Below, one piece after another: positions 1 to 56,785 of a DNA stretch of 64,000 nt. The notes beneath the pieces were generated by a model. It was not told the DNA's origin and did not search any database. It saw only the letters and a list, made by a program, of their open reading frames with translations. Numbering within the stretch: position 1 is the stretch's first letter; every line of letters begins with the position of its first letter. Origin of the DNA: Hysterangium stoloniferum (lineage: Eukaryota; Basidiomycota; Agaricomycetes; Hysterangiales; Hysterangiaceae). Location of the stretch: contig WHVD01000055.1 of the NCBI GenBank assembly GCA_015178975.1, positions 186,001 to 250,000 on the forward strand, written 5' to 3'. A program made the position numbers and the translations under genes.

Positions 1-3000
1 TTGGTAACGAAGTCTTGAGCATGGGCGGATGCGAGATCGCGTTCCGGGTGGATTGCGATGTTGGGGTTGTAGCCTTTATTTGCGAAGAAAGGCGAAATGC
101 CAGTAGTGGCATTCGGTGCGTTGTTGTATGCAAATTCGGCTAGTGGTAGTAGTGATTTCCAATTGTCTTGTTGATAGTTGCAATAAACATGGATGTATTG
201 TTCCAAGGTTTGATTCATGCGTTCAGTTTGTCCATCGCCTTCCGGGTGATAGCCTGAAGTGAAATGTAGCTTCATGTCTAGTGCTTTTCCGAGTGACCTA
301 AAGAAGTGAGAAACAAACTCAGATCCGCGATCAGATGTGACATGTGATGGAACGCCATGCTTGGAAAATACATGGGTGACAAATAATTCAGCTAACTGTA
401 CAGATGTTATCGTGTCATATGTTGGAATGAAAATACTTTGCTTTGAGAGCTGATCCACAACAACTAGGATTGCTGTGTGACCTTCGGATGCCGGTAGGTG
501 CTCGATAAAATCCATAGAAATTAAGTTCCAAGGTTTTTCCGGTATCGGTAATTGTTTGAGTAGGCCATATGGTTTGTGTCGCTGTGATTTAGAGCGTAAA
601 CACGTAGTACAAGATTTACAATAGTGCTTGACGAAATCTCGGATGCCGGGCCATGTATATTGTCTTCTAATGAGTGAGAGGGTCTTATTGAGGCTGAAGT
701 GTCCTGAGATTGGGTGGTCGTGCTTATGTTGTAGGATTCGCAGCCAAAGGGTGTCAGAGTCCGGTACATAAATGTGATTGTCAAGTCTAATGAAACCTTG
801 TGAGTCTAATGACCATCGGGGTTGATCGGGGTCGGACGGGTTATTGAGGTGTGCTTTGGTGACTGGGTCTAATGGAATTGCCGATAGTATATCTTGATGT
901 AACTTTTCAGTATCCATAAGGATAACACTTCGCAAGACTGGATGAATGAGGTAAGTGGCTCAGATAGACGCGGACAGTTGTTCTGATGAAAACATAGGCT
1001 TGAAATTATGCGGGTTAACTGTGGCGTAGTCGCTACTCCCCTCTTTAGGATAGATGTCCCATCGTCTAGTCATAGCGTCGGGTTTTCCACCGAGGTGGCC
1101 GGGACGGAAGCGAATTACCATGTTGAAAGCAGAGAGGTATTTGGACCATCGAGCTTGTCGACGGGTGAGAAGTTTTGTGGTTGAAAAGTAAACTAGATTT
1201 TTGTGGTCTGTAATAACATCTACCAGGTGGGCCGAGCCTTCCAAATAATGTCGCCATGTCTTGAAAGCTTCAAATATTGCGAGTAGTTCCTTATCGTGAA
1301 CATCATAGTTGAGTTCGGGTGCCGAAAATGTGCGAGACAGAAAAGCTACTGGGTGTACTTCACCATCGGTGTCCAAAATGGACAATATCGCAGCAAGCGC
1401 ATAGTCCGAGGCATCAGTTTCCACGATGAGTTGAACGTCAGGCTTCCAGTGTGACAAAATAGGGGCGGATGTAAACGCACTTTTCAATTCCTGGAATGCC
1501 GATTGGCATTCTTTGGAGAAAATCCACGGGGCATCTTTGTGAGTAAGATGAGTGAGCGGAATGGTAATTTTTGAGTAGTTGTGAATGAAATGACGATAAA
1601 AATTGGCGAAGCCTAAAAAGGACTGAATATCCTTAACCTTTTGGGGTTCCAGCCAATCTTGAATGACTTGAATTTTAGAGTTGTCCATGCGGAGACCGTC
1701 AGGTCCCATCATAAACCCTAAATATTCAACTGTGTTGACATCAAAAGAACATTTATTACCATTCGCAAAAAAACCATGTTTTCGGAGTCTTCAGAGAACT
1801 TCACGAACGTGTTCGTCATGAAGTGTAGGATCTTCGGAGAATATGAGGATGTCGTCTAAGTACACAATGACAAAGACATCGAGGAGGTCGGAAAAGATGT
1901 CGTTGATAAAACATTGAAAGACTGATGGAGCGTTGGTGAGGCCGAAAGGCATTACTAACCATTCGAAAGAACCATAGCGAGTGCGAAAAGCCGTTTTCCA
2001 TTTGTCGCCTTTGGCGATCCGAACCAAATGATAGGCATGCTTGAGGTCTATCTTTGTATAGATTCGGGCCTTCTGAGGGGCATCGAGTAAATTGGAGATT
2101 AGTGGTAATGGGTACTTATCTTTTTGAGTGATCACGTTTAGTCCTCGAAAGTCAACGCAAAGCTGAAGGGAACCATCTTTTTTCCAAACGAATAGGACAG
2201 GGGCTCCATAAGGAGACTTTGAGGGTCGGATAAAACCTATAGCCAAATGTTCGTCCAAGAAATCTTGGATAGCCGATAATTCGGACTGCGAGAGAGGATA
2301 AACTGGGCCTAGGGGCGGATGTGAACCATCTTCAATATCAATTTTCAAATCGTAAGGCCTGTGAAGGGCGAGTCGATCTGCTTTTTGTTTACTGAAGACA
2401 TCTGCAAATTCATGGTATTTTTTGGGAACACCTTCCAAATCTGTGATCGGTTCGGTCACCGGGGATGCAAAGTGACCGGTGACTTCGTCAACTTTAAGAT
2501 TGACTGTAAATGCTCGGGAGCCGTCCAACTTGATGGCTCTCATACAAGCTGTGGCGTTTATTAGAGAGACGGGCGGCGGAGAGCTCGGATTTGCCACGGG
2601 GGCCAGAGGTGCTGTAGAGGCCATATTTGCCGAAACAGGCGGAAATGGAGCAGTCGTATCGGGTGCCGACGGGGTTCGGAAATGGATACTGCCCAATACC
2701 CAATCAATCAACGGATTGTAGCAGGTGAGCCAGTTATGTCCTAGAACCACGGAGCAACTCGGGTCCAACTGTGTTACAAAAAATGTAACTGTCTGAAAGG
2801 TTCCACACGAGAACCTAAGTCGGAGTTCGCAGGCTTGCGAGATTACAGAGTTTGAGGTACCATCAAAGAGTCGGAGCAGAATCGGATCTATTGCATAGGT
2901 TTTTAACTGATTTTTTCGGGAAAAACTTGTATCTATAAAACAATGGGTTGAACCTGAATCTATGAGAGCTCGAAAAGTGAGACTCCCAAGAGGTTCCGAA

Positions 3001-3133
3001 GTAAGATTTATGAACAAAGAATTAGGATCATACAAGGCAGATGCGTTAAGGTGACAATTTTCCGGTGTGCGAGGAGATTCAATGCAACTCTCCAACCGCA
3101 CAGAATCCAGAGAGTTGCTTAATCTTTTTTCGA
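1..3133 (-). pseudogene. Family A pol: protease, reverse transcriptase, RNase H, integrase (broken, 3' truncated by window)
   Basis: Pol polyprotein for reverse transcription and integration. The aspartic protease motif LIDSGSTHCF lies near 2966. The reverse transcriptase shows PFGLTNAPSVFQCF and the active-site YLDD (near 1860). The RNase H segment with ETDASDYALAAIL is near 1400-1440, and the HHCC zinc-binding part of integrase (H..H then CKSCTTC) near 600-740. The DDE core follows to the left edge, with GYHPEGDGQTE near 225-260. In-frame TGA codons stand near 1790 and 960, and at both the plus-strand copy has arginine. Pol is in the -1 frame relative to gag. The sister copy is at 51180-54410. 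Confidence 0.92.
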
Positions 3134-4417
3134 CTCGGCAGCCGGCTTGGCCGGTTGTGAGGTCGTGGCCGTATTGGCCGATCGGGCTTTTGTGGCTTTT
3201 GGGCATGCAGCGACTCAGTGTCTGGGATCTGCGCACAACAAACAAAGGTTGTTGTCCATTCGGCATTGCTTTTCCTGTGGTAGGAGCTTGCCATCGGAGC
3301 CAAGTTTGCCAGTTAAGTCGGGTTTGTCTTTGTCTTGAGACTTATTCGACTGTTTTCCCTTGCCTTTTTTGTCATTAGCCCCTTTGTTTTCGGACTTCTT
3401 ATCGGAGGTCGAGTTGCCACTGTTGTTGGTGTTTTGATTACCAGACTTGTTGGCGTTCTTATTGTCCGATGATTTTTTGTCCGAGGGGTTTTCGCGACTA
3501 ATTTCCGAACGTCGTTCCCAGTATTGGGCATCTGCATTTTGGGCTTTCAGATGCATGAGAGGGAGGGTCTTCGGCTTGCTGGTCTCTCCTTTGGAAACTT
3601 CGTCTTTGAGGTGAGACGGAAGGCTGGAGTAAAACTGGTAACGGAGGGCCGAATCGCCCCAGTCACAACGTGCGGCGAGGTTGTTGAACTGGACGATGTA
3701 ATCGGTGATGTGCTGAGTGTCTTTCATTTTGAGATTAGAAAGCATGGTTTTGGCATCGCCGATTTGGTCGTAGGGACCGAAGTTGGTTTCGAGTTCCTCG
3801 ACAAAGGCATCCCAATCGTGGAGCCAATCGGGGTCTTCGGAGGTGAGGCCAGAGAATGTGGGTTCGAACCAGGCTGCTGCGGAATCCTTAAGGTATGAGA
3901 GTGCGAAGTTTACCTTTCGGTCATCCATTGTGAATGCAGCCGGTCAGTCCCGAAAGTTGAATCGACATTGCATAAGAAATGTCGGCAATTTCTTCGGGTT
4001 TGAGCCAGTGAATGGCTCGGGTTTGTTGACTCGGGTTTGCCCAGGTTCCTTTTCCTTGATATTGCTTCTAAGGAATTCGTTAAGGGATCCTAGAGTACCT
4101 GAAAACAATTCCCATGTCTCTTCAGGGTCGAGAGCCGGTTTCTTTTTTGTGGATTTCTTGGAACCACTAGCCTGAGGTTGATCGCCACCCTCAGGTTCGT
4201 GTTCCAGAGCTGATTGATTGTTAATCTCTTCAGTTGCTTCGGGTTTGGTTGCTTCAGTTACTTCTTCAGCATCGCCGGTGATCTCCACAAAGCGAGATTC
4301 TTCGGAGGTTTCTGGTAACAGGGTTCTCTGAGTAGTTCGGGCTGTATACAGGAAAGGAGACTTGAGAGTGGAAGATTCTGCTTCGCCACTTGGCTTGGCA
4401 TTTTTCCTCGGAGGCAT
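3119..4417 (-). pseudogene. Family A gag (capsid/nucleocapsid), two premature stops
   Basis: The start is MPPRKNAKPSGEAESS at 4417, with no nearer in-frame ATG after the LTR. An acidic, Glu/Pro-rich N-terminal part is followed by a Ty3-type capsid domain (AAWFEPTFSGLTSEDPDW, YIVQFNNLAARCDW near 3690-3870). Then comes a Lys/Asn/Ser-rich linker and a CCHC zinc knuckle of the form CLLCADPRH-x4-C near 3190-3240. Two TGA stops interrupt it, near 3944 and inside the knuckle near 3215. Both fit Arg CGA to TGA changes, since the plus-strand copy and the knuckle pattern have arginine there. The frame ends at TAA (3119-3121) right after an A-rich stretch, which is where pol takes over in the -1 frame. 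Confidence 0.9.
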
Positions 4418-41425: not shown

Positions 41426-43880
41426 TTAAATTTTGAACAGCGCCTTGTATGCCCTCAGAAGTGCCGGAGCATTTCTGAGGTTAGTGCTGCTTAACCACGA
41501 ATCCTCTTCGGGTCCATAACCTTTCCATCGCACCCTAAATAGCAGACAATTTCGCTGTTTTCTATGTCCAACAATAGCTTCAACTTCGTATTTTTCATGA
41601 TCTGATTTCAACTCTCTTAGGTTCTCAAGTTGGGGTCTTGGACCTAGGTTGGGAGGAGAGGGTCGATATTTCCACAGATGATCCCAATTAATGACTGGAT
41701 GCATCGGATACTCCGGGGGAATCTTAAGCCTAAATACTTGAGAGTTCAATTTCTCAAGGACCTCGAATGGTCCAATCCGTCTTTGTATTAGTTTCTTCCC
41801 CGTTCCCTTGACTTCCACCAGTTCGAGGGAGTGGGGGTTCACTAATACAAAGTCTCCCTCGGAGATATCTTTGACAGGTCTTTGCTTCTTGTTATACGCT
41901 CGTGCTTGAATCTCTTGGGCTCGAGCAATTGAATCCTGCGCCATCTGTCAATGACTCTCTAGTTCGAGAATCCATTGGTCGGCCATAGGGCTGTCTGATA
42001 GTTCTCTAGGAACTAGGGGTTCGTCACCTCCTAGAACTTGAGACATCCCTCTTGGGAGGTATCCCATTAATAAGAAGGCCGGAGCGTAGTTCGTTGAACT
42101 GTGAACGGTTGAGTTGTACGCATGGACTACCACCTCAATCCATTGGGACCAGCTCTCCTTAGCAGAAGCACAATAGGCTCGAAGCATTTGTTCTATGGTT
42201 GCATTCATATTCTCCGTCTGTCCATCCGTCTGGGGATGATGGGCAGAAGATACCGCAAGGGTGGTGCCATAAATCTTACAGACTTCCTGCCAGAACCTGC
42301 AGGTCCATCTCTTGTCCTGATCGCAGATTATTCGAGAGGGTAGTCCGAAGGGGCTGGCCACCTGTTTGACAAACATTCGTGCAAATCCTTCAGCCATAAG
42401 GTTCGAGAAAGTAGGTATTGTAATAGCGAAACACGTTAATTTATCAACGGCGACGAAAACTGCTGAATATAAATCCTTTCCTGAGTCAGGTAGTCCAGTG
42501 ATCAGGTCCATAGAAACTACTTCGAAGGGCCTAAAAGGTACATCAGCAGGTCTGAGGGTTCCTTGACGAGCGGTGCAATCAATTTTGGTCATTTGGCAGA
42601 TGTCGCAGGTACGCGCGTACGACACGCAATCTTGCAGCATTTTTGGCCAAAAGAACCGGTCTTTCATTAGGTTGAACAACCACTGACCTCCGGCGTGCGC
42701 TCCCTCAAAAGGATTATCATGTACCAACCTTAAAATAGAGTTAGTCATGGTTCTGGGCACGCAAACTTGACTTTTCCAGTCCGAGTCACGAAAGTACAGG
42801 AGTCTGTTTGCTCCCACGAAGTAGTGAGAAGGAGTGACAACCGCATTGGGTGAAGGGGTATCTAGAGCGTAGAGGTTTCTGAAGACTGGGTCCTTCGAGT
42901 ATCCCTCTAGAAATTTCTTTATATATCCCTCCTCGATACTGATTAGTAGCTGAGGATGATGCAGTGCAAAGTCGGACTCATCCTCCTGATCGTCCCTCAC
43001 TGCGTTATGAAAATCCCATTCCGACTGTTGAACCTTCTGAGTTACTCCAAAAGGTTCCATGGAATCATTTATGATCGAGAAGACCACCTTCTTAGCAGGT
43101 TCGTCCTTCCATAGTTTTTCCTCAGTGCTTTTGTCCATAGAGGTCGAAGTGATAGCTTGTAAATCATCTCTAATAGGGCTCACGAAGGCTGGTACCCGAG
43201 GAAGTCTGGACAATGGGTCCACATTACTGTGAACTCTTCCTGCTCGATGTAAAATTTCGAGACCTGGAAATGCAGTGTATAGCGCCCCCATGCGGCTAGT
43301 CGACGATTAGTGTTCTCGTACGATCTAGCCCATTGCAGAGCTGCATGGTCCGTAATGAGTAGAACATGTTCACCTTCAATGAAGGGTTGGAAGTGGACTA
43401 GTCCCTCCTTTGCTGCTAACGCTTCCCGTTCAGTGGCAGAATAGTTACGTTCAGCGCTTTTCAGCGTGCGGCTCCAATATGCAATGACTCATTCAACGGT
43501 AACTTCGGTCGCCTCAAAAGTGGGTCCCCATGAATCCGACCACTCAATCTCGGGCTGTTTGGTTTTGTACCGATGAACAAAGGATGGCACATCCTGCGCA
43601 CGGTCAAAAGCTAACTTGGCTTGGGTATAGATTTTAGTGTCCATCAAGTCTCTTAAAGCCATCTTCTGGACTTGTTGGAGACAACAACCTAAGGCAAAAT
43701 CTGAAGCGTCCATATACAATCGATAGGGCATCCCACTAACTGGATGTCCCAGCACTGGTGCTGATCCTAGCGTGATTTTAACATCCTCATAAGCTTGGAC
43801 ATGTTCAGCAGTCCATGTCCAGGGTGTTCCCTTTTTTAGGAGCGAGAATAAAGGGGACACCATCCATGAATAGAATGGTA
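41426..43880 (-). pseudogene. Element B RT end, RNase H, integrase and chromodomain
   Basis: It continues the polyprotein after the TRIM (SLLKKGTPWTWTAEHVQAYE; RNase H with YMDASDFALGCCLQQ). A TGA stands near 43489. A one-base loss in a G run (43290-43294, GGGGG where element C has six) shifts the frame. Integrase then shows HDNPFEGAHAGG, CDICQMTK, MDLITGLPDS and HHPQTDGQTENMNATIEQML. A TGA near 41945 (Arg in C) separates the last part, which ends in a chromodomain (VEAIVGHRKQRNCLLFRVRW, then KGYGPEEDSW; 41426-41600). Chromodomains in this class are known to steer integration to marked chromatin. Confidence 0.92.
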
Positions 43881-43907
43881 TATACTGTTAAAAGTGTAGA
43901 TAATGAA

Positions 43908-43979
43908 TGGCCAGACTGGGGATTGAACCCAGGGCTTCTGCATATATAGCAGGGGTGTTAACCATTACACCACCTGACC
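43908..43979 (-). ncRNA. Complete tRNA-like cloverleaf inside TRIM LTR (copy 1)
   Basis: 72 nt fold as a full cloverleaf. Acceptor GGTCAGG/TCTGGCC (7 bp, two G-T), D-stem GTGT/ACAC with loop AATGGTTA, anticodon stem CCTGC/GCAGA (four pairs, one mismatch) with loop TATATAT, T-stem CTGGG/CCCAG with loop TTCAATC, discriminator A. A box TGGTGTAATGG and B box GGTTCAATCC match the Pol III consensus. The nominal anticodon is TAT with A instead of T at position 33, so it is unlikely to decode. It is part of the LTR rather than a chromosomal tRNA gene. Confidence 0.8.
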
Positions 43980-44190
43980 CTGGGAAGCACTGCTAGCATT
44001 ACTCAAACTAACACACTCCCTTAATGCTAGCACTCAACTATACTATAAGCAGATATAGGTCCTCTCTGGCTCTTTTGTCCAGACTTGTCCACTATACCAC
44101 ACACAAATATAGCTGTTCACTCTACACACAGGAACCATGCCCTATAGCACACAGCGGGGCCCATAACCTGTTAAAAGTGTAGATAATGAA

Positions 44191-44262
44191 TGGCCAGACT
44201 GGGGATTGAACCCAGGGCTTCTGCATATATAGCAGGGGTGTTAACCATTACACCACCTGACC
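44191..44262 (-). ncRNA. Complete tRNA-like cloverleaf inside TRIM LTR (copy 2)
   Basis: Identical in sequence to the copy at 43908-43979, at the same offset within the second LTR. Confidence 0.8.
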
Positions 44263-44301
44263 CTGGGAAGCACTGCTAGCATTACTCAAACTAACATATA
44301 C

Positions 44302-47177
44302 GCCAAAAAGTAAAGGACCATTCCAAGGAACCGTTGTAGTTCAGAGACCTTAGTGGGTGGGGCCAGTTCCAATATAGCGTGAACTTTCTCTTGATGGGTC
44401 GAAAAACCCAACCTGGATACTTTATGACCCAACAACAAGATCGAATTATATCCGATAAAACATTTCTTGGGAGAGAGAGTGATACTGGCCAAAGCGATAG
44501 CGCCAAGCACCTGATTCAGGTGAAGCAAATGATCATCCCAGTTCTTAGAGAATATGACTATGTCATCGATGTAGACTAGACAAAAAATCCACAAGTAGGG
44601 TGCTAACACTATTTGCATGACGTGCTGAAATGTGGAGGGGCCGTTTCTGAGCCCGAACAGCATCCTCTTAAATTGCCACAGCCCTCTATGAGATCTAAAG
44701 GCTGTTTTGGGCTTATCATCCTCCAACATTTCTAATTGAGTAAACCCAGCTAGCGTGTCGAAAGAAGAAAGAACATTTGACCCCGACAACGCCTGCATGA
44801 TCTCTGATTGACGTGGTAAAGGGAATTCGTCTGGAACAGTGAGATGATTAAGTTTCTGATAGTCGATGACCACCCGCAGTTTACCATTGCGATATACTAC
44901 AAAGGCTGGCACCCCCCAGGGGCTTTTAGATGGCTCAATGACACCCTGTTCGAACCAGGTATCCATTTGCTCGTCTATAACTCTCCTATTGGCAGGGGAC
45001 GAAGGGAACATAGGCATGGATATGGGCTGGGCGCCCTCTTTCAAAGGGACAGGGACTCTACATTCCACTTGCCCTAACCGTCCATCGACTCCGAAAGCCT
45101 TAACGCTCTCAGTCAAAACTGATCTGAGATGTGGCAAGACCTCCGTTGGTATATCTGGTCCCAAGTTGACTAGCTTGTGAAGATCCTCTGAGGCAAATTG
45201 TTCATTATCAGCCACCGCAGCCGTCTTAGGACCAGGCGGTTCGAAATCATCCGCAATCTCTGGTTCAACAGGTGGCTTAGGCCTCTCTGAGGCGAATTGA
45301 CGGTCCTCTTCAAGTTGAGAGAGACTTTCGATAAGGTGTGCGATCTTGGTCGCGCTGGCTGCCATTAAACCTTTCTCCTCAAGTGACCTGGGCTTGTGAG
45401 CCCAACGAGCGGGGTCATGAATTATCCCTATTGTCTCCCCTCGTCGGATAGTCTTAGGGGTTAGCGATGGATTGGCTAAGGGTACTGCCACACTATTCCT
45501 TGAAATTGCTGTGATTGGTGTGGCTAATATGGAACCGTCCTCGTTTTGCAATACAATTCCTTCAACAATCCATTCCTCGCCCTTTAGATCTTCAACAAAA
45601 ATAGGCACTAGTCTGGCTGACTCTGGATCGATAGTGCAATCCTCCAAGGCTCGCACGACTCTTTCAGTACGCACACCTTTATCAGGGAGAGAGGTGAGCT
45701 TGGGTTGCTCCTTCTCATGCTTCCCGAAAGGGGCCTTATTGACGGTGAAGGTCAAAGGTTGAGGTTCCTTAGAAGAACTGGCTGGAATAAAATGCTGTTG
45801 TCCCGGGAGAATAAGTCTAGCCAACGGCTGATCTCTTAGAGTACCGATTTCATAATTAATATGGAAGTCTTCTCCTAAAAGAATTGGCACCATCATTCCT
45901 CTAACGACATACGTTTCCGCCGCGAACTTCAGTAACGTTCCACTGTCGTCCTCCAGGTAAATAGGAATATTAACATATCCGATAACCTTAGCGTTACCCG
46001 TGAGCTGGATTAGATGCAACTTGAGTCCTTGTTTCAACTTATATATGCCCTGCAGCCCCTTGTAGAATTCCTCCGATATAAGGGAAAGATCCACTCCCGT
46101 GTCCATTCGAACTTTAACGCGTTCGGGTGAATTGGGAGTTCCTACATGACCGAAAACATGGAGCGCTGCAACTCCTATGCTAGAGTAACCACTGGGAGGA
46201 TCCCGTTTTCGATAAAGGATCGTAGTATCCTCCTTCATCAGATGACTGGGACGAGGGTATTGGATTCTAGGCCTCTTACTTTCCTTGCACAGGGACAAGC
46301 TTACATTCCTGCGCTCACTTCGGCAAGGAACATGCTTCGAAGGGGAATCCAATACCGGATCATTGTCGCTGTCCTCCGAATCCGAGTCCTTGTACGGTAG
46401 TAAGTCGGGGGGGTTTCCGGGATCAAACGGGAATGTGTCAACATCAGCTCTGGGCGAACAGAGCAAGTTCGAGCTGATTTGTTCGTGAGAATCTCCAGTC
46501 TGACGGTAGTTCTCGGTCAGGCCTTCAAGGTCCTGCCGATGAGCACTCAACCTGTCTCCCTTTTCGAAGAAATCTGCGGCAAGTATGGATACATAAACTT
46601 CAGATGGAAGAGCCTCACTAGTCGTTCGGTTTTCCTCCCTTACTAATTTGTCTCCGACTCGGGGCGCATAAATGGAAACAAAAGTCAATTCGTCATCAGA
46701 GCTATTTACTTGTCCTTGTATAGATAGTCCATGAACCGCTTCATATAACCTTTGCTCCTCAGCTTCCTCTGACATATCCTGTGCGGAGCATTTGTTGATA
46801 GAGACATAATGAGACATTTTACCAGCTTGGGGGCAGTCTATCTTGAAATGCTCCGGACTTCCGCATATCCAACATTCCTTGGTGGGTTTGACCGAGCTCT
46901 TCTTGTTACTCCTCTTGAAGAACATTTTTCCGTGACACTTTCCCTGCGTTGGATTAGCGACGTCAGGGATGGTCCTTCTCATCGAGCCTCTCTCGTTAGT
47001 CTCACTAACGAGAACATGGTTAGGTGAAGAGAAGTCGTCGGTGACTCTAAAATCCACTTCCTGACCCTCTGATAACATTACGCACGGTTTCTGAAACCTG
47101 TAGCATTCCCAGTGTGTTTGGACCCAAGCGTTAATCAGAGCTTCTTGCAGGTTATTAGCATAGGTCTGCAAACTCAT
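44302..47177 (-). pseudogene. Element B zinc knuckle, protease and N-terminal reverse transcriptase
   Basis: CWICGSPEHFKIDC (CCHC knuckle) lies near 46830-46870. The aspartic protease motif VRMDTGVDLSLISEEF is near 46080-46120, followed by a VPILLGEDFH flap/domain end. Reverse transcriptase shows VVIDYQKLNHLTVPDEFPLP, FGLRNGPSTFQHVM and active site YIDD (near 44570). The frame is open for 963 codons, unusually well preserved, until it runs into the TRIM at 44296. Confidence 0.92.
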
Positions 47178-51178: not shown

Positions 51179-54100
51179 GCAACTCTCTGGATTCTGTGTG
51201 GTTGGAGAGTTGCATTGAATCTCCCCACACACCAGAAAATTGTCATCTTAATGCATCCGCCCTGTATGATCCTAATTCCTTGTTTATAAATATTACTTTG
51301 GAACCCCTTGGGAGTCTCACCTTTCGAGCTCTCATAGATTCAGGTTCAACCCATTGTTTTATAGATATGAGTTTTTCCCAAAAAAATCAGTTAAAAACCT
51401 ATGCAATAGACCCGATTCCGCTCCAACTCTTCAATGGTACCTCAAACTCTGTAATCTTGCAAGCCTGCAAACTCCAACTTTGGTTCCCATGTGGAACCTT
51501 TCAGACAGTTACGTTTTTTGTAACACAGTTGGACCCGAACTGCTCCAACATAACTGTCTCACCCACTTCAATCTGTTGATTGATTGGGTATTGGGCAGTA
51601 TCCATTTCCAAACCCTGTCAGCACCTGATACGACTGGTCCATTTCTGCCTGTTTCAGCAAATATGGCCTATACGGCACCTTCGGCCCCTGTGGCAAATCC
51701 AAGCTCTCCACCGCCCATCTCTCTAATAAATGCCGCAGCCTTTATGAGAGCCATCAAGTTGGACAGCTCCCGAGCATTTACAGTCAACCTTAAAGTTGAC
51801 GAAGTCACTGGTCGCTTTGCATCCCCGGTGGCCGAACCAACTGCAGATTTAGAAGGTGTTCCCAAAAAATACCATGAATTTGCAGATGTCTTCAGTAAAC
51901 ACAAAGCTGATCGACTTTCCCCTCACAGGCCTTACAATTTGAAAATTGATATCGAAGATGGTTCACATCCGCCCCTAGGCCCAGTTTATCCTCTCTCGCA
52001 GTCCGAGTTATCAGCTATCCGAGATTTCTTGGATGAACATTTGGCTATAGGTTTTATCCGACCCTCAAAGTCTCCTTATGGAGCCCCTGTCCTGTTCATT
52101 CGGAAAAAAGACGGTTCCCTTCAGCTTTGCGTTGATTTTCGAGGATTAAATGTGATCACTCGAAAAGATAAGTACCCGTTACCACTAATCTCCAATTTAC
52201 TCGATGCCCCTCAGAAGGCCCAAATCTATACAAAGATAAACCTCAAGCATGCCTATCATTTGGTTCGGATCACCGAAGGGGATGAATGGAAAATGGCTTT
52301 TCGCACTCGCTATGGCTCCTTCGAATGGTTAGTGATGCCCTTCGGCTTCACCAATGCTCTGTCGGTCTTTCAATGTTTTATCAATGATGTCTTTTCTGAC
52401 CTCCTCGACATCTTCGTCATTGTGTACTTAGACAACATTCTCATATTTTCCAAAGACCCTACACTTCATGATGAACACATTCGTGAAGTTCTCCGAAGAC
52501 TTAGAAAACATGGTCTTTTTGCGAATGGTAAAAAATGTTCTTTTGATGTTGACACAGTTGAATATTTAGGTTTCATGATGGGACCCGACGGACTCCGCAT
52601 GGACGACTCTAAAATTCAAGTCATTCAAGATTGGCTGGAACCCTGAAAGGTTAAGGATATTCAGTCCTTTTTAGGCTTCACCAATTTTTATCGTCATTTC
52701 ATTCACAACTACTCAAAAATTACCATTCCACCCACTCGTCTTACTTGTAAGGACACCACATGGAATTTCTCCGAGGAATGCTGAACGGCATTCCAAGAAT
52801 TGAAAAGTGCATTTACATCTGCTCCTATTTTGTTGCACTGGAAGCCCGACGTTCAACTCATTGTGGAAACTGATGCCTCGGATTATGCGCTCACTGTGAT
52901 ATTGTCCATTATGGACACCGATGGTGAAGTACACCCAGTAGCCTTTTTGTCTTGCACATTTTCGGCACCCGAACTCAATTATGATGTTCACGATAAAGAA
53001 CTACTTGCGATCTTTGACGACATTATTTGGAAGGATTGGCTCACCCGATAGATGTTATTACCGACCACAAAAATTTAGTTTACTTTTCAACCACAAAACT
53101 CCTGACCCGTCGGCAAGCCCAATGGTCCGAATTCCTCTCTGCTTTCAATATGGTAATCCGTTTCCATCCTGGCCACCTTGGTGGGAAACCCGACGCTATG
53201 ACTAGATGATGGGATGTGTATCCTAAAGAGGGGAGTAGCGACTACACCACAGTTAATCTGCATAATTTCAAGCCTATGTTTTCATTGGAACAACTGTCCG
53301 CATCTATCCGAGCCACTTACCTCATTCATCCAGTCTTGCGAAGTGTTATTCTTATGGATACCGAGAAATTACATCAAGATATATTATCGGCAATTCCATC
53401 AGACCCAGTCACCAAAGCACACCTCGATAACCCGTCTGACCCCGATCAACCCTGATGGTCACTAGACTCACAAAGTTTCATTAGACTTGACAACCGCATC
53501 TATGTACCAGATTCCGATACCCTTCGGCTGCAAATCCTACAACATAAGCATGATCACCCGATCTCAGGACATTTCGGCCTCAATAAGACTCTCTCACTCA
53601 TTATAAGAGAACATACATGGCCCGGCATCCGAGATTTTGTTAAGCACTATTGTAAATCTTGTACAACATGTTTATGCTCTAAATCACAGTGACACAAACC
53701 ATATGGCCTACTCAAACAATTACCGATACCGGAAAAACCCTGGAACTCAATTTCTATGGATTTCATTGAGCACCTAGCATCTGAAGGTCACAGCAATCCT
53801 AGTTGTTGTGGATCGGCTCACAAAGCAAAGTATTTCCATTCCAACATATGACAGGATAACATCTGTACAGTTAGCCGAATTATTCGTCACCCACGTATTT
53901 TCCAAGCATGGTGTTCCATTGCATGTCACATCCGATCACAGATCCGAGTTTGTCTCTCACTTTTTTAGGTCACTCGGAAAAGCACTAGATATGAAGTTAC
54001 ATTTCACTTTGGGCTATCACCCAGAAGGCGACGGCCAAACTGAACACATGAATCAAACTTTGGAACAGTACATCCGTGTCTATTGTAACTATCAACAAGA

Positions 54101-54954: not shown

Positions 54955-56785
54955 GTGTCCTCCTCCTGTCCATATCCTTTCCATCAAACCTGGAAAAGGA
55001 GTCAATTTCAATGCTTTTTGTGCCCTACTATAGCTTCTACTTTGTACTCCTTGTCGTTACAATTAAGTTCTCGAGGATTCTCGAGTAGCTCCCTGGATCC
55101 GAATTCCTTAGGGGAGAGATGGTATTTTTTAAGATGGTCTCGATTAATCACTGGGTGTAATTGATATTCTGAGGGAATGCGGAGTTGGAAGACTTGAGGA
55201 TTGATCTTCTCCAAGACTTTGAACGGCCCTATCCGTCTTTGTATAAGTTTCCTTCCGGGTCCCTTGGCTTCGACAAGCTCGAGGGAATGGGGATTAATCA
55301 AAACATAATCTCCCTCTGAGATATCTTCTACCAATCTCCGCCTCTTATTGTAGCTACGAGCTTGGGTTTCTTGTGCTCGCGCAATCGAATCCCGCGCTAC
55401 TTGTCGGTGGTTTTCCAATTCTAAGATCCATTGGTCGGCTACGGGGCTATCCGATAATTATCTGGGGACCACAGGGTCGTCTCCTCCTAGACAGCTAGAC
55501 ATTCCTCTTGGTAAATAGCCCATCAGTAAAAAGGCCGGTGCATAGCTCGTTGAGCTTTGAACCGTCGAATTGTAGGTATGAGCCACTACTTGAGTCCATT
55601 TAGACCATTCCTCCTTCGAAGAGGTGCAGTACGCTCTGAGCATTTGCTCCACGATAGCATTGGCGTTCTCCGTTTTACCATCGGTCTGAGGATGGTGGGA
55701 CGAGGATACCGCAAGGGCACTTCCATATACCTTGCAGACCTCTCTCCAGAACCTACAGGTCCACCTCTTGTCTCGATCACAGATTATCCTTGAAGGTAGG
55801 CTGAAAGGAGCGGCTACCTTATTCACGAAGATTCGCGCAAATCCTTCTGCAGATAGATCTGAAGTGGTGGGTTCACAAATTAAGAAACGAGTGAGTTTAT
55901 CCACAGCAACGAAGATGGCTGAATAAGCACCCTCTGTAGAAGGAGGCAATCCGGTAATCAGGTCCATCGAGACAACCTCAAACGGCCTTAGGGGTACATC
56001 TGCGGGTCGAAGAGCTCCTTGTCGAGCGGAATGATCGACTTTAGTTTTCTGGCATATATCGCAGCTGCGAGCGTATGCCATGCAGTCATGCAACATCCTC
56101 GGCCAGAAGAAATGGTCTTTCATCAGATTAAAGAGCCTGTGGCCGCCTGCATGAGCTCCTTCGAAGGGATTATCATGTATCAGCTTGAGTATGGTTGTTG
56201 TCATGCTGCTAGGAACGCAGATTCGACTTTTCCAGCCCAAATCTCGAAAGAACAATAGCTTATTCTTGCCGATGAAATAATGCAAAGGAGTAGTTACCAT
56301 GTTTGGAGAAATGGGATCGGTGGCATAATAATTTCTGAAGGCAGGGTCTTTCAGGTATCCATCGTGAAGTTCCTTAGCATAATTTTTGTCGATCTCTATA
56401 AGCAATTGTGGATTCGAGAGAGTAAAATTCACTTCATCAGTTTCATCGTTTCTAGGGAGGTTGTGCAAGTCCCATTTCGTTTGGGGGACCTCTTCCATGG
56501 TTCTGACTGGTTCGACTAACTCGTGATGAGTGAAAAAGACGGCCTTTTTCGCTGGTTTGTTCTCCCATAACATCTCATCGTTTTTCCGGTTATGAGAGTC
56601 CGCTACGATCGGTAAAAGGTCATCTCTCATGGGGCTAGCATAGTCTGGTACTCGAGGAAGTCTGGACAATGGGTCAACATTGCTATGTATTCATCCTGCT
56701 CTATGTAGGATTTCCAGACCGGGGTATGCAGCGTATACCGCCCCCCATGCGGCCAGTCGATGATTAGTATTCTCATAAGATCTGG
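54955..56785 (-). pseudogene. Element C integrase and truncated chromodomain
   Basis: HDNPFEGAHAGGHRLFNLMK, CDICQKTKVDHSARQGALRP, MDLITGLPPSTEGAYSAIFV and HHPQTDGKTENANAIVEQML mark the integrase. The chromodomain starts VEAIVGHKKH, then has three TGA codons at positions where B has or should have Arg, and stops at GYGQEED where LTR D begins. Confidence 0.9.

Follow-up and report, generated by a model that had tools for sequence, protein, structure and literature searches.

Evidence for recent activity of a Helenus-type miniature LTR retrotransposon with tRNA-like LTRs in Hysterangium stoloniferum

The stretch of Hysterangium stoloniferum DNA analyzed here (64,000 nucleotides in full, hereafter the window) contains an intact miniature LTR retrotransposon of 411 bp at positions 43886-44296, read directly from the sequence. 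We put a probability of about 80% on the reading that this element is a TRIM of the Helenus type, active recently and with a decayed tRNA gene in its LTRs, and that it moves by a cycle of Pol III transcription, priming by initiator tRNA-Met (iMet), and mobilization by Copia proteins.

A miniature element with identical LTRs, TATAC duplications, and a 155-bp non-coding core had been described in the first-pass annotation, and direct reading confirmed each of these features (Table 1). The LTRs agree at 128/128 bp (134 nt at 99% when the repeat comparison includes flank), the termini are TGTTA...TAACA, and the longest stop-free frame in the core is 51 codons, with one antisense frame free of stops for its full 51 codons. 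The polypurine tract (PPT), primer site, and tRNA call are all on the minus strand, which is therefore the sense strand; the strand of the cloverleaf was absent from the annotation. When up to 3 mismatches were allowed, a 40-bp probe from the LTR matched the window at 2 places, which are the two LTRs (0.00 expected). Minus-strand ORFs flank the element at 44287-47177 (RVT_1) and 41949-43291 (rve and its zinc-binding domain), the RVT_1 frame ending some ten bases within it, and the element apparently sits inside a Ty3/Gypsy-like element, the Gypsy label being read from the domains. The window as a whole abounds in RVT_1/rve retrotransposon ORFs (1792-3266, 41949-47177, 51354-52646, and 55459-56669). 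At least 120 protein matches were listed, and the species they name belong to the agaricomycetes, in keeping with the host.

Table 1. Features of the window element, with genomic sites bearing on its partners (positions without a contig prefix are those of the window; LTR2 and core2 belong to family 2; slashes mark joints).
Feature	Position	Strand	Basis or remark
Target site duplication TATAC, left	43881..43885		read from sequence
Target site duplication TATAC, right	44297..44301		read from sequence
5' LTR (sense orientation), 128 bp, TGTTAG...CACTTTTAACA	44169..44296	-	sequence
3' LTR (sense orientation), same sequence as 5' LTR	43886..44013	-	sequence
Core, 155 bp, without long ORF	44014..44168	-	sequence
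Primer binding site GGTTATGGGCCCCGC, complementary to host iMet nt 25-39 (anticodon arm)	44154..44168	-	
Polypurine tract TTAAGGGAGTG, adjoins 3' LTR	44014..44024	-	sequence; PPT-like by position
tRNA-like cloverleaf, 5' LTR (LTR positions 35-106)	44191..44262	-	ARAGORN, RF00005, fold
tRNA-like cloverleaf, 3' LTR	43908..43979	-	ARAGORN, RF00005
A box TGGTGTAATGG	44245..44255 (5' LTR); copy 43962-43972 (3' LTR)	-	
B box GGTTCAATCCC	44202..44212 (5' LTR); copy 43919-43929 (3' LTR)	-	
TTTT, possible weak Pol III terminator	44173..44176; copy 43890-43893	-	
Putative second plus-strand start, GGTCAGGTGGTG then T, LTR 35-46	43968..43979	-	putative role
Putative third plus-strand start, ATAGGGCATG then G, core 24-33	44136..44145	-	putative role; L028 begins here
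LTR-end/PBS sites with tRNA-like LTR	C1:1655683, C1:3022713, C1:4138298, C2:58426, C2:1333416, C2:477532, three in C4 array, C5:304367		
PBS sites with Copia RT	C1:2071494, C1:2133457, C1:2390962, C9:107522, C13:636534, C13:1333103, C14:162271, C14:166900, C24:730191		
Hybrid, LTR2-Copia-Copia LTR	C35:906369		duplication AGAGA (5-mer match, local chance 3%)
Hybrid, LTR2-Copia-Copia LTR	C14		no duplication (GACCA/GGAAC)
Hybrid, LTR2-Copia-Copia LTR	C256		no duplication (CTTCT/AGTTT)
Hybrid, LTR2/Copia interior-Copia LTR/core2-LTR2	C2:477284		duplication TTTTT
Hybrid, Copia LTR/core2-LTR2/Copia interior-Copia LTR	C259		duplication ATCAC
Hybrid, Copia LTR/core2-LTR2/Copia interior	C35:1081 kb		left part and joints read

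Across the 64 kb ARAGORN called just two tRNAs, both 'Ile TAT', with one lying in each LTR, and Rfam RF00005 scored 46.8 bits for each copy (cut-off 29; E 7e-9). Minimum-energy folding of the 72-nt segment gave a cloverleaf (z -2.18, with 7/200 shuffles equally good), the D-loop GG and the T-loop TTCAATC are both present, and the A and B boxes were recognized by the box consensus. These results confirm the cloverleaf, boxes, D-loop GG, and canonical T-loop claimed earlier from the letters. A chance cloverleaf was rejected on the RF00005 E-value and the 430 related LTRs described below. At gathering cut-offs, Rfam reported tRNA alone and no 5S rRNA, the latter being a trait of Cassandra. A tRNA finder would score such LTRs as tRNA genes; a functional tRNA-Ile(UAU) was nonetheless rejected, given A33 instead of U33 and, in other copies, abnormal anticodon loops that depart from the 7 nt of a functional tRNA. 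The window copy also has a C-A mismatch in the anticodon stem, the loop of the core-bearing copy L129 carries 4 extra nt, and that of a second family (family 2, below) is enlarged. The anticodon loop thus argues against decoding, as had been suggested from position 33. Neither an exact D-arm pattern (GTGTAATGGTTA[GT]CAC; 0 matches in the genome) nor the 63 of 5384 tRNA candidates that were scored pointed to a parent tRNA, and an exact IMG/VR search with the 5' part of the tRNA-like sequence gave 0 matches. Separately, 28 ARAGORN calls in 30 tRNA loci (some overlapping) are an intron-bearing tRNA-Lys(CTT), many with similar flanks, at C112:987000-1219000, C68:744000-852000, and also C410 and C290, which are among loci L044-L067; this looks like a repeated or mobile unit separate from Helenus.

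Variation in the tRNA-like part of the window family (family 1) is limited. Among 118 overlapping matches there are 26 distinct segments, most with few changes and too little for covariation; boxes A and B have their commonest form in 89 of the 118, while individual copies carry changes. Scores reach 52.9 bits in a diverged subfamily (L088, L013), versus 46.8 for the window form; were that subfamily the older one, the young form would have decayed as a tRNA while spreading. Several copies in the ten loci scored fall under the tRNA cut-off (in L013, L030, L104, L129, and L150). It could be that the tRNA-like part has been retained for RNA structure, serving packaging, RNase P/Z end formation, or RNA stability and not as a promoter. 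The acceptor, D, and T arms do pair in the window copy, and all four stem differences between the L088/L013 subfamily and the window copy give pairs when G-U is counted. We nevertheless consider this explanation unlikely: a cut after the discriminator base would be expected to sever the 5' LTR RNA from the primer binding site (PBS), the minimum-energy fold of family 2 is not a cloverleaf (z -0.30), and cores follow in L104 and L129 even though both score under the cut-off.

The 111-Mb assembly holds many close relatives of the element. A 31-nt T-arm pattern (up to 2 mismatches) located 430 LTRs genome-wide, with 0 for the reversed control, and a 34-nt pattern across the LTR/PBS/core joint (up to 3 mismatches) located 84 joints, with 0 for the control. 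All of the best 40 of 540 LTR candidates and all of the best 40 of 130 core candidates scored 99-100%, in agreement with the very recent movement that the first-pass annotation had read from zero LTR divergence. Of these 40 core matches, all but C1:4138155 and C1:3022716 were read, as was C541, and L002, L005, L006, L008, L011, L012, and L014 were dropped as overlapping other loci. Among 38 loci checked for a target site duplication (TSD), L003 (an LTR without core or TSD), L034 (a duplicate of L016), and L095 (a composite) were excluded, which gave a set of 35. These loci represent the youngest copies because they were drawn from the best matches. A 5-bp TSD bounds 33 of the 35, the exceptions being L016 and L038 (4 bp); in this count, the left end of L018 was set at 47 by hand, and L028 and L037 lie one base off the BLAST edge. 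Every one of these loci has a tRNA-like part in one or both LTRs. Paired repeats with 5-bp duplications therefore recur in other copies, and a chance capture, with the tRNA-like part missing from most copies, is unsupported. The outermost complete LTRs are identical at 23 loci and have 1-4 differences at 7, and one LTR is truncated at the remaining 5.

Other arrangements of family 1 were also found. Perfect 5-bp TSDs flank 17 of 20 LTRs hand-picked as partnerless (not L151, L154, or L156; L151 and L152 have a left flank in common), and the tandems L004, L013, L036, and L091 have the form LTR-core-LTR-core-LTR with outer duplications. In L030 (C141), a young copy with TSD GCAGG has inserted into the tRNA-like segment of an LTR belonging to another copy. 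L016 (C407) and L034 (C71) are one element without a TSD, found with identical flanks on two contigs, and represent either a duplicated segment or an unmerged haplotype. The 5' LTR of L090 (C25:178050-178660) is full, and its 3' LTR lacks positions 1-91 and resumes just past A58. This gap would fit reverse transcriptase arrest at LTR 91, presumably the site of m1A58 modification in the tRNA-like part, as a single case with 1-nt ambiguity.

Several copies differ at their left ends. In L009, L018, L031, and L037 the left end falls at LTR position 47, within the D arm of the tRNA-like part, and these copies have complete 3' LTRs and distinct abutting duplications (GTTTT, GAAGG, ATCAC, and GTCCG). 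L018 is the weakest of the four, as the GTCAGG of the LTR is present in its left flank too. These copies should be separate events because reverse transcription would restore full LTRs from such a copy. The bases preceding the break, GGTCAGGTGGTG before T, resemble the actual tract, TTAAGGGAGTG before T. L028 has its left end at core 34, following ATAGGGCATG, and continues as core-LTR-core-LTR, with an AAGAA duplication one base off the break. Such shortened and extended left ends are those that alternative plus-strand starts would be expected to yield: the left end would be lengthened if the plus strand started upstream of the PPT and shortened if it started downstream. Position 47 might instead be primed by an RNase H-resistant 5'-terminal oligo of an RNA starting near LTR 30-35. 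Four sites have LTR 47 not preceded by G, namely L009 and L031 from above plus L097 and L098; the latter two were rejected as truncations, both being point mutants. Among the titles listed for cryptic plus-strand starts or cDNA recombination, none was on point.

The host has 3 copies of the iMet gene (L069-L071) of one sequence, and the first 15 nt of the element's core are complementary at 15/15 positions to nt 25-39 of this 72-nt tRNA. By sequence and by analogy, the primer site points to half-tRNA priming, as in copia and Ty5; Ty5 and Drosophila copia have the iMet anticodon-arm primer in common with the window element, but are reportedly autonomous coding elements. The tRNA-like part was rejected as the element's own primer, its longest stretch of complementarity to the PBS being 4 nt. 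The LTR end ACA followed by GGTTATGGGCCC has 799 exact matches in the genome (reversed control 0), 100 of which were listed by place, 52 of these on contigs C1-C8. Of the C1-C8 sites, 49 were read, C1:3022713 and C1:4138298 were known by exact LTR match, and C1:2390962 was left out. A tRNA-like LTR is present at 10 of these 51 sites (Table 1); at the other 41, neither a tRNA call nor a B box was seen in the 160-200 nt preceding the PBS. In one batch ARAGORN called L121 alone, and L104 and L129 were identified by B box and LTR sequence. PF07727 (Copia RT) lies 2.7-4.0 kb downstream on the same strand at no fewer than 9 of the 100 listed PBS sites, as judged from the best 150 of 1270 candidates. 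As to the PBS and PPT of an autonomous family, the window element has a PPT-like tract and a PBS, of which the PBS is common with Copia elements; the window core has nothing but this PBS (12-16 nt) in common with the Copia-type interiors read.

A second tRNA-LTR family has 251-bp LTRs, a different tRNA-like part (48.6 bits), and a core of ~66 bp (L085). L085 itself is an array of four family 2 LTRs with an outer duplication GGTTG. The two families bear on the idea that an ordinary Pol II TRIM took up a tRNA or SINE, which its LTR has carried since as an inert insert. An abnormal anticodon loop and the damaged tRNA-like parts of some copies are what such hitch-hiking would predict, yet families 1 and 2 differ in both U3 and tRNA-like parts and in each the distance between B box and LTR end is 44-45 nt, and the same arrangement has been found again in fungi, animals, and one plant, according to the parts of the Helenus paper cited here (PMC10886601). 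We regard hitch-hiking as quite improbable.

Family 2 also forms hybrids with Copia elements. A 217-bp query spanning the family 2 tRNA-like part and one Copia interior was used, and of the best 40 of 449 candidates scored, 6 span the whole query and 34 match the Copia side alone. That six of six hybrids involve one Copia family follows from the query, which contained that Copia interior alone. The hybrids were read at their ends, and at all six sites the joints fall at the boundary of LTR end and PBS. Scored Copia RT lies inside the C14, C35:906369, and C256 hybrids, and another 4 kb downstream at C35:1081 kb. In three copies of the partner Copia family, open frames of 1384-1386 aa surround the RT, and its members L075 and L080 match the window family in the LTR end CACTTTTAACA and in the first 15 bases of the PBS. 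On sequence grounds, it is a candidate helper. Among the loci read, family 1 has no joint with this Copia partner. Its composite L095 instead lies within a distinct PBS-sharing element whose start is gag-like, and L088 (C24:162700-163600) is rearranged, a head-to-head mosaic of two Helenus-type LTRs and pieces of yet another PBS-sharing element.

Two readings of these hybrids were considered. Those that pair a Helenus-type LTR on the left with a Copia interior and LTR on the right may have arisen by plus-strand transfer between two different cDNAs in one Copia particle, with the position-47 starts reflecting plus-strand priming by the D arm or by a 5'-terminal Pol III RNA oligo. We hold this tentatively, at somewhat under even odds; if true, the genome would directly document the autonomous element on which a Pol III-driven TRIM relies. 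Alternatively, the hybrids could be products of DNA recombination at a common primer site and uninformative about the helper, a possibility that we would also place a little short of an even chance. Two of the three simple hybrids (C14 and C256) lack matching TSDs, the composites are shaped as if a one-LTR circle had joined at the PBS, the single-Copia outcome was dictated by the query, and L095 and L088 join family 1 to other PBS-sharing elements, so the joints are not limited to one partner. On the other side, the ~21 bp common at the LTR/PBS joints would be short for homologous recombination, and C35:906369 does have its duplication, though one that a 5-mer match could give by chance.

In the cycle that we favor, Pol III would initiate via the A and B boxes, close to where the tRNA-like part of the 5' LTR begins, pass the weak TTTT at the end of that LTR, cross the core, and stop in or after the 3' LTR, which would locate the tRNA-like part in the terminal repeat of the RNA. 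The 5' half of iMet would then prime minus-strand DNA at the PBS, and the PPT the plus strand, with Copia-element proteins providing reverse transcription and integration and giving the 5-bp duplications. The LTRs, TSDs, PBS complementarity, purine tract at the PPT position, copy number, left ends, and family 2 hybrids are the sequence evidence behind this proposal, together with A and B boxes that keep their commonest form beside an abnormal anticodon loop. From them we infer Pol III use, the RNA ends, the plus-strand starts, and the helper of the window family. Several observations run counter to it. The TTTT at LTR 121-124, which on the sense strand is the sole run of at least four Ts in each unit, could terminate Pol III ahead of the PBS (the first T-runs of the three host iMet genes are 4, 7, and 6), and the joints of family 1 involve PBS-sharing elements other than the Copia partner of family 2. 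The limited match of the window core to Copia interiors, the LTR copies under the tRNA cut-off, and the sampling of the youngest copies also weigh against it.

The closest known system is Helenus, of which the window element is a further member as judged by described features. Helenus comprises TRIMs defined by a tRNA-like sequence in their LTRs, with Agaricomycetes among the hosts (Kojima, 2024; PMC10886601, cited here, as is PMC7215508, from parts of the text). The first-pass annotation had taken plant Cassandra as the precedent for an LTR-borne Pol III gene, with a different RNA; the direct precedent is instead Helenus, which already has tRNA-like LTRs in fungi including Agaricomycetes, so that the RNA type is no novelty. 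Like described Helenus elements (PMC10886601), the window element has two LTRs, a length below about 1 kb (411 bp), and no proteins; tRNA-derived sequence with A and B boxes within the LTRs; a PBS and a PPT-like tract at the core ends; a 5-bp TSD, as in other fungi; a PBS matching the iMet anticodon loop, the usual fungal choice; a tRNA-like part not complementary to the PBS; and solo LTRs with TSDs in its family. In that paper, the tRNA part is judged mostly non-functional, a Pol III promoter role is inferred, and the helper, likely Copia, is argued from PBS similarity and one shared interior; here, the PBS is common with Copia and hybrids are seen for family 2. Copia hybrids and left ends at LTR 47 do not appear in the cited parts of PMC10886601, whose main text has 0 occurrences of 'chimer' and 'hybrid'. 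Among the literature matches listed for 'Helenus', Kojima (2024) alone concerned the elements, and those for 'TRIMp3' were mostly unrelated uses.

Cassandra TRIMs resemble the window family in having a Pol III gene, promoter and terminator included, within the LTR and in their tandem LTR-core arrays, but carry 5S rRNA in plant hosts in place of a tRNA-like sequence in a fungus (PMC7215508). Ajax is also a TRIM with a small-RNA-derived LTR, but one from partial 5S rRNA and in nemerteans (PMC10886601). Tandem copies are not new, being known for Cassandra (PMC7215508) and for the zebrafish Helenus family LTR-11_DR (PMC10886601). According to PMC10886601, nothing points to a helper for Cassandra, and the moving partner of tRNA- or 5S-bearing TRIMs is what the young copies and hybrids described here bear on. 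Because this genome combines young, near-identical copies with hybrids joined at the primer site, both the helper and the plus-strand start are testable in it.
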